Shown here: positions 32,192 to 32,785 of the stretch, piece after piece
Layout of the letters: every line of letters begins with the position of its first letter
How positions within the stretch are numbered: the first letter of the stretch is position 1
Made by a program: the position numbers and the translations under genes
Notes under the pieces: model-generated
Database searches by the model: none
The model's input: only the letters and a program-made list of their open reading frames with translations
What the model was told of the DNA's origin: nothing
NCBI GenBank assembly: GCA_902791625.1
Contig: CADAWN010000013.1
Coordinates: 1 to 32,785 of the forward strand
Origin: an uncultured Erysipelotrichaceae bacterium
Lineage (GTDB): Bacteria > Bacillota_I > Bacilli_A > RF39 > UBA660
Reading direction: 5' to 3'
Length of the DNA stretch: 32,785 nt

Positions 32192-32326
32192 AATTAGATA
32201 TATAAATAATCATAAATATAATCTAAATTAATTATAATTAATCAATTATATATAAGTTTATTCTAAGCGATTGAGATTACTTTTTATGGATAATTCATCA
32301 CCTCAATCTAATTTATATATCTAATT
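32192..32326. repeat. 16-bp inverted repeat pair around repeat copy A
   Basis: aattagatatataaat (32192-32207) is perfectly complementary to 32311-32326. The arms are 103 bp apart and enclose the first 49-bp repeat. Both are made of A/T nearly throughout, so chance is possible. Confidence 0.5.
32261..32309. repeat. Diverged 49-bp direct repeat, copy A
   Basis: Matches copy B (32396-32444) at 35 of 49 positions without gaps, with conserved ends (ttctaagc and ctcaatct) and core (atggataatt). Copy A also has an internal inverted repeat gattgag/ctcaatc. Confidence 0.55.
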
Positions 32327-32395
32327 GATATGCATATAGATACTAATTTAATGATTTCAATTGATTATATTAAATTGTTAAAAATTAGCGATTAA

Positions 32396-32444
32396 TTCTA
32401 AGCAATCGAAATAATAAAAGATGGATAATTGTCCATCTCAATCT
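32396..32444. repeat. Diverged 49-bp direct repeat, copy B
   Basis: Second copy, same length as copy A. It differs in having a perfect agatgga/tccatct hairpin (32419-32438) in the core, which on the - strand is followed by a T-rich tract. Confidence 0.55.
32407..32438 (-). terminator. Putative - strand terminator within repeat copy B
   Basis: On the - strand the stem AGATGGA (32438-32432) / TCCATCT (32425-32419) is followed by TTTATTATTT. It could end the transcript that starts near 32717. Confidence 0.45.
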
Positions 32445-32717
32445 CTTAAATTTAATAACAAAATTTATAAATATATATGTATGAATACATATACATATAC
32501 CATATAATAGGGTACCTTCCCCTATTTTTATAAAATATATGAAGTAGGGGGAGTATATACTAATTCTTATCATACTACTCCTTATTAGTATAATAATGAT
32601 TATTCTAATAAAAATAGTACCAACTGCATAAGTCGGTACTAAACCCAAATACTAGGGAATAGTATCTAACACTTAAATTAGATATTCCCTTTTTTATTAT
32701 ATGAAGTTTCCTTCACT
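32408..32717 (-). ncRNA. Candidate structured non-coding RNA, about 310 nt
   Basis: On the - strand a near-consensus promoter (32752-32724) would start an RNA at about 32717-32716. No credible reading frame follows it. The RNA would open with a GTGAAG-GAAA-CTTCAT hairpin (32716-32701) capped by a GNRA loop. Three more stems follow: a 12-bp stem with a 3-nt bulge (32655-32689), a 10-bp stem agtaccgact/agttggtact with one G-U (32640-32616), and a 9-bp G/C-containing stem with one A-C mismatch (32553-32516). A stem plus T tract near 32438-32407 could end it. I find no tmRNA, RNase P, SRP or 6S signature. The + strand alternative is discussed under the terminator at 32655. The strand and ends are inferred. 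Confidence 0.4.
32655..32696 (+). terminator. Strong hairpin with + strand T tract
   Basis: gggaata (bulge gta) tctaa pairs with ttagatattccc (32678-32689), loop of 8, followed on the + strand by six Ts. Read on the + strand it is a good intrinsic terminator, perhaps of an RNA starting after the TATAAT at 32503-32508 (about 185 nt). Read on the - strand it is an internal hairpin of the candidate RNA. Confidence 0.6.
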
Positions 32718-32723
32718 AAATAC

Positions 32724-32752
32724 ATTATAACACATTATCTATTCTTTTTCAA
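32724..32752 (-). promoter_or_regulatory. Near-consensus promoter on the - strand
   Basis: TTGAAA (32752-32747), 17-nt spacer ending in TGT, TATAAT (32729-32724): five of six -35 bases, a perfect -10 and an extended TG. No protein gene follows it on this strand. Confidence 0.75.
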
Positions 32753-32785
32753 TACTACTACTCTTCTCTATTCTAACTCTTCTAA

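Follow-up and report, generated by a model that had tools for sequence, protein, structure and literature searches.

A hairpin-rich stretch on the minus strand of the window (i.e., the whole 32,785-nucleotide stretch of DNA analysed here) encodes a real small RNA at approximately positions 32607 to 32717. This RNA is very probably a type I antitoxin of an uncatalogued, lineage-restricted family, present in the window without an active toxin, most likely as part of a decaying module. An antisense RNA gene overlapping the gene of a small hydrophobic peptide was found in 64 of 84 copies, with only a relic of the toxin kept in the window copy, and extensive complementarity between antitoxin and toxin mRNA was evident from cognate duplexes of -150 to -161 kcal/mol. 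We class the RNA and its partner as a new family of an established kind, the type I toxin-antitoxin systems.

The minus-strand RNA and its family

The following features were located in and beside the RNA gene.

32607-32717, minus strand: antitoxin RNA, with its start near 32717 and its end in a T-tract near 32607
32724-32752, minus strand: antitoxin promoter, with -35 TTGAAA at 32747-32752, -10 TATAAT at 32724-32729, TG before the -10 and a spacer of 17
32701-32716, minus strand: H1, the 5' hairpin GUGAAGGAAACUUCAU with a GAAA loop, just past the predicted start near 32717
32690-32697: conserved A-tract of the antitoxin, on the plus strand the T-tract of the putative toxin mRNA terminator (from sequence, alignment and position)
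32655-32689: H2, the second antitoxin stem, on the plus strand the stem of the putative toxin mRNA terminator
32615-32641, minus strand: H3, the antitoxin terminator stem, followed by TTTTTATT, a terminator-like site
32768-32785, minus strand: 3' end of a deoB-like (phosphopentomutase) gene, with its stop at 32768-32770, running on into contig C14

The minus-strand promoter described in an earlier note on this DNA was recognized, with 11 of 12 consensus matches and the first rank among five promoter-like sites between 32000 and 32785. As shuffled sequences yielded 9.3 such sites, only the rank and position of this promoter are informative; transcription starts, including that of the antitoxin near 32717, are predictions from sequence. 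In agreement with the same note, a GNRA-capped hairpin (H1) lay right after the predicted start. Of the three further stems and possible terminator proposed there, H2 and H3 with its T-tract were retained while stems to the left of 32600 fell outside the RNA. As the RNA ends near 32607, the proposed interval of 32408 to 32752 extends approximately 200 nt too far to the left, and the left-hand stem at 32418-32439 belongs not to the RNA but to an AT-rich repeat stretch also found 3' of deoB in relatives. This stretch (32240-32440 of the window) contains repeated short elements like TTTCGATTGCTTAAAAT and GATGGATAATTGtCCATC and also follows deoB at this position in genomes of the same genus (L114, L115 and L116); the stem within it is itself terminator-like on the minus strand. 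An 87-aa minus-strand ORF with a TTG start (32385-32648) was of low complexity and without a Shine-Dalgarno sequence and was taken as chance.

Minus-strand terminator-like sites (i.e., a stem followed by a T-tract) numbered two in the region, compared with 0.1 expected, and one of these was H3. The 112-nt antitoxin RNA folded at -36.4 kcal/mol versus -18.8 +/- 3.4 for dinucleotide shuffles (z = -5.3), and none of 200 shuffles folded as well. The antitoxin, its promoter and its terminator look intact in the window copy.

The window makes up contig C13 of a draft genome of 1.53 Mb in 61 contigs, with an estimated contamination of 6.33%. Its last 99 bases (32687-32785) are identical to the first 99 of contig C14, and the contig break falls on the antitoxin locus, perhaps because strains differ there. 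Extension past 32785 into C14 disclosed a 391-aa minus-strand ORF (L002:82-1257) with homologues in 18 of 26 genomes, which we take from a reading of its protein to be deoB-like. As the stop codon of this gene precedes the RNA promoter, the antitoxin RNA is not the tail of the deoB-like gene; had it been such a tail, the proposal of the earlier note would by its own terms have been refuted. Read-through transcription from deoB into the RNA may occur. The idea that the position after deoB is a conserved locus of the module was dropped, since the module was absent there in three same-genus genomes.

In a DNA search of the same genome, the promoter together with the 5' hairpin came up about ten times. 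A covariance model (R1) built from 52 copies, the window copy among them, identified 10 strong copies in this genome and matched the window at 32610-32717 with 89.3 bits and an E-value of 9.5e-12 in a search of that genome, E-values for this model being rough owing to a short calibration. Elsewhere, a 23-base hairpin pattern matched 29 stretches in other bacterial genomes, most of them in assemblies that bear the label uncultured Bacilli or Erysipelotrichaceae; the isolate names of several suggest animal gut or rumen samples. Among 193 genomes of the same family, 130 had matches to R1, with a maximum of 18 per genome; outside the family, only one genome of a wider class sample and one of a wider phylum sample matched. 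Upstream of 87 copies, at least five of six -10 matches were present in 80 and at least five of six -35 matches in 38, a level reached by approximately 3% of shuffled -35 regions.

Comparison of the antitoxin RNA with Rfam, at gathering scores and at relaxed E-values, returned nothing over the cut-off. A match in the window to cow-rumen-4 (RF02948) scored 20.7 bits, the gathering score being 48.5, and with an E-value of 1.2 was at chance level; searches of 16 other loci at E-values as high as 2 did not return this family. A weak Rfam match to rli28 was likewise at chance level. Searches for tRNA and tmRNA found none. An origin in a phage or plasmid element was rejected, there being no exact match in viral contigs, none in phages and one short plasmid match at E 0.01. 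No report of the RNA or module family was found in the literature, chiefly openly accessible papers, which is weak evidence.

Three helices were evident from an alignment of the 52 copies made from sequence only: H1 at the 5' end, H2 past the A-tract and H3 followed by T's. In this alignment 93.8% of cells paired and both-sided changes occurred in 16 of 23 pairs (7 of 8 in H2 and 9 of 9 in H3), with H1 almost invariant. Double-changed cells numbered 164, compared with 44.5 in shuffles and 10-36 in versions with the partners slid, in which pairing fell to 33-43%. In a larger alignment of 105 copies, fitted to the structure and hence leaning towards it, 18 of 23 pairs covaried, H1 now included, and a compensatory G-C to C-G change in H1 was noted in 27 of 104 distinct copies of the wider set. 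A second form of the 5' hairpin that carries this kind of change, GUCAAGGAAACUUGCAU in place of GUGAAGGAAACUUCAU, was common in the IKIVPT subfamily (L131-L160). Thus, the compensatory changes that the earlier note had called for are present in conserved stems and, together with the predicted start and the Rfam result, bear out its proposal of a structured small RNA that is unannotated and has a promoter of its own. That the hairpins are instead chance terminator-like structures in an AT-rich stretch downstream of deoB has almost no likelihood; other hairpins and AT-rich repeats do occur at the same place in same-genus relatives, but hundreds of copies with a conserved promoter, 5' hairpin and covarying stems, besides the fold of the RNA, speak against chance, which is refuted by conservation and covariation.

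The strand of the RNA was indicated by the ratio of G-U to C-A combinations (C-A being G-U on the other strand), which on the antitoxin strand was 41:0 in H1, 81:7 in H2 and 21:8 in H3. Since G-U pairs are almost confined to the RNA's strand, the functional RNA is that of the minus strand in the window.

Convergent peptide genes and the putative toxin message

An ORF for a membrane peptide of 17-33 aa, led by a Shine-Dalgarno site and converging on the RNA from the opposite strand, was found at 64 of 84 sites. The criteria (i.e., a Shine-Dalgarno site, a start, 17-45 aa, a hydrophobic stretch and a stop at a set distance) were chosen after examples had been seen; in controls under identical criteria, such an ORF turned up on the strand of the RNA itself at 1 of 84 sites, at 6 of 2000 positions drawn at random from these loci and at 5 of 1780 shuffled sites. 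At the other 20 sites no ORF was obtained by these criteria, some being degraded, at contig ends or failing the strict Shine-Dalgarno rule. Typical peptides were MSKKDFLIFSLIFIIFLLIALLFVILK, MTKREKSLFIIILLLFFILITLLYK, MKLKTFIIKVLYLISIILLLSTLLVLAIKK and MRKQEKYLCTIIILLIIVILIILIKIVPTV, and K or R was present within the first eight residues of 57 of the 64. Eight representative peptides gave no family match in Pfam, NCBIfam or PADLOC. For the subfamily to which the window belongs, codons 2-22 gave pN 0.106 and pS 0.249, values by which this peptide is under constraint.

In intact copies, a toxin mRNA of approximately 215-270 nt and an antitoxin RNA of approximately 110 nt would converge. With the A-tract as the T-tract of the toxin terminator, H2 as the stem of that terminator and H3 at the end of the antitoxin, the two RNAs would overlap by approximately 85-90 nt. 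The message would encode a membrane peptide of approximately 27 aa, basic residues usually lying near its N-terminus, and its Shine-Dalgarno site would be held in a local hairpin; on folding, this site was mostly paired whether the 3' end of the message was included or not. In the same sense, the 5' end of the toxin mRNA was similar to the H2 of its locus, at a mean z of 4.4 (compared with 0.0 for antisense), and this similarity exceeded that to 92% of the H2 stems of other loci. Because the 5' end thus copies H2 of the antitoxin, it is complementary to the 3' end of the same message. With toxin mRNA starts inferred from TATAAT boxes, the mean pairing probability between the first 40 and last 60 nt was 0.60 in 61 intact copies, compared with 0.14 in shuffles and 0.35 in chimaeras of different loci, and the full-length message is probably closed by pairing of its 5' end with the 3' terminator region.

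The 5' hairpin of the antitoxin probably protects this RNA, which would pair with the toxin mRNA in its 3' part and silence this message or mark it for decay. We infer transcription, toxicity of the peptide and repression by the antitoxin; silencing, its mode and toxicity are drawn from known type I systems (PMC7472228, PMC6733600, PMC6563280). As toxicity is a prediction, the RNA might instead be a free-standing regulatory small RNA with other targets, and the hydrophobic ORFs small membrane proteins tuned by it rather than toxins. The unusual constancy of promoter and 5' hairpin and the retention of the window copy without a working partner would suit such a role, which we nevertheless hold to be unlikely: the extensive, locus-specific antisense overlap, the tiny hydrophobic peptides, the hidden Shine-Dalgarno sites and the many decayed copies make up a type I pattern, and duplexes of the window RNA with six other intact toxin mRNAs of its genome reached only -34 to -44 kcal/mol, far weaker than those of cognate pairs. 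For the same reason, we set aside silencing of other toxins of the genome as a role of the window antitoxin.

A probable toxin relic in the window

On the plus strand, opposite and beside the antitoxin, the window holds the following.

32548-32631, plus strand: toxin relic, open frame GEYILILIILLLISIIMIILIKIVPTA followed by TAA at 32629-32631, without an ATG, GTG or TTG start behind a Shine-Dalgarno site
32539-32547, plus strand: ATG AAG TAG, with the ATG 90 bases ahead of the toxin stop codon, as in 30-codon relatives, TAG as codon 3 and no Shine-Dalgarno site
32516-32553, plus strand: hairpin CUUCCCCUA...UAGGGGGAG, shaped like the Shine-Dalgarno-sequestering hairpin of intact relatives (from folds of the window and L042)

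The earlier note had reported no protein frame and so missed the toxin frame on the plus strand. This frame ends in IKIVPTA, with its C-terminal 20 codons well kept, and is homologous to MRKQ(D/E)KYLCTIIILLIIVILIILIKIVPTV of L042, L054 and L058 and to MRKSEKYLC...IVPTA of L091, and it clearly belongs to the MRKxEKYLC...IKIVPT(V/A) subfamily. The subfamily pattern occurs only once in the genome of the window, and other copies of the subfamily are broken too. The agreement of the ATG at 32539 with the start position of 30-codon relatives could be a coincidence, the N-terminal part aligning poorly; in another alignment, the start would have been removed by a deletion directly 3' of AGGGGGAG. The hairpin over AGGGGGAG is similar to the Shine-Dalgarno hairpin of relatives, or by a rival reading is derived from a GC-rich hairpin present after deoB in relatives. 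Pairing of the 5' and 3' ends is lost in the window copy, with values of 0.10 and 0.00 from two alternative starts. From these features we read the module as one in which the toxin has died and the antitoxin remains, the lesion being read at an assembly break in a draft genome.

An active module, in which the toxin is still made from a non-standard AUU or AUA start behind AGGGGGAG, appears improbable. No frame other than that of the toxin stays open after AGGGGGAG, which lies within a strong hairpin as in relatives, and the conserved C-terminal codons would fit continued use; against this, none of the assignable intact ORFs of the subfamily uses AUU or AUA, and N-terminal residues have been lost along with the 5'-3' pairing.

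The earlier note had remarked that one stem pairs only on the minus strand and another only on the plus strand and had left the strand unsettled; the ambiguity is expected where two convergent RNAs share one region, the stem that pairs on the plus strand only lying within the remains of the toxin gene. The strand of the RNA is now settled as minus by the G-U excess.

Relation to known type I systems

In Fst/par (RNA I and RNA II of pAD1; Fst/Ldr family), a toxin mRNA for a small membrane peptide and an antisense RNA are convergent, a 5' hairpin hides the Shine-Dalgarno site and pairing involves the 3' ends (PMC7472228). The new family is similar in its convergent RNAs, small membrane peptide, Shine-Dalgarno site in a 5' hairpin and 3'-end pairing. 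It differs from Fst/par in that none of 64 peptides carries the PxxxG motif, that fstAT (RF01797) gave no match in the genome of the window at E up to 1 and none over the cut-off in 21 genomes, that each RNA has its own terminator (H2 and H3) as opposed to one shared bidirectional terminator, and that the toxin 5' end is an inverted rather than a direct repeat of the 3' end. These differences indicate that the new family is not a member of Fst.

In hok/Sok and aapA/IsoA, the latter present in several chromosomal copies, the mRNA of a hydrophobic peptide is closed by a long-distance 5'-3' interaction and opposed by an antisense RNA (PMC6733600). Comparable closure is predicted here for the 61 intact copies (0.60 versus 0.14 in shuffles) and is absent from the window copy; in contrast with these systems, the hosts are different and the overlap is convergent at the 3' ends. 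No toxin or antitoxin match indicating hok/Sok or aapA/IsoA homology was obtained via Pfam, NCBIfam or Rfam. Type I modules of Clostridioides difficile (CD2907.1-RCd9 and relatives) are convergent, 3'-overlapping and multicopy with a long complementary region (PMC6563280). Compared by description, the new family shares the convergent, 3'-overlapping and multicopy arrangement and the long complementary region, with peptides of approximately 27 aa as opposed to toxins of 50-53 aa. The window copy recalls the orphan orzP antitoxin of E. coli, an antitoxin RNA retained without its toxin (PMC11264685), from which it differs in that a toxin remnant is still in place and in that host and sequence are unrelated.

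With these findings, a structured RNA that abounds in a large group of uncultured bacteria gains a likely function, and many unannotated membrane peptides of 20-30 aa are predicted. The window copy would illustrate the death of a module, the toxin being lost first and the antitoxin later. With many diverged copies in each genome, the family lends itself to a natural test of the evolution of antisense specificity and of toxin mRNA silencing by 5'-3' closure. More tentatively, the modules may form an undescribed, lineage-restricted type I superfamily carried by most members of one uncultured Bacilli family, with up to 18 diversified copies per genome of approximately 1.2 Mb, in which locus-specific antitoxins are driven by a promoter and 5' hairpin that hardly vary, each toxin mRNA locks itself shut by a mirror copy of its own antitoxin's stem, and orphan antitoxins persist and might act as anti-addiction RNAs.

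With respect to arrangement, antitoxin copies were often noted in same-orientation tandem arrays of two to four modules (L003 1535-1988, L033 1078-1850, L158 360-1613 and L027 1501-1948). T-box leaders (RF00230, above the gathering score) were noted near antitoxin copies at L033 520-732 on the minus strand and L027 2102-2310 on the plus strand.
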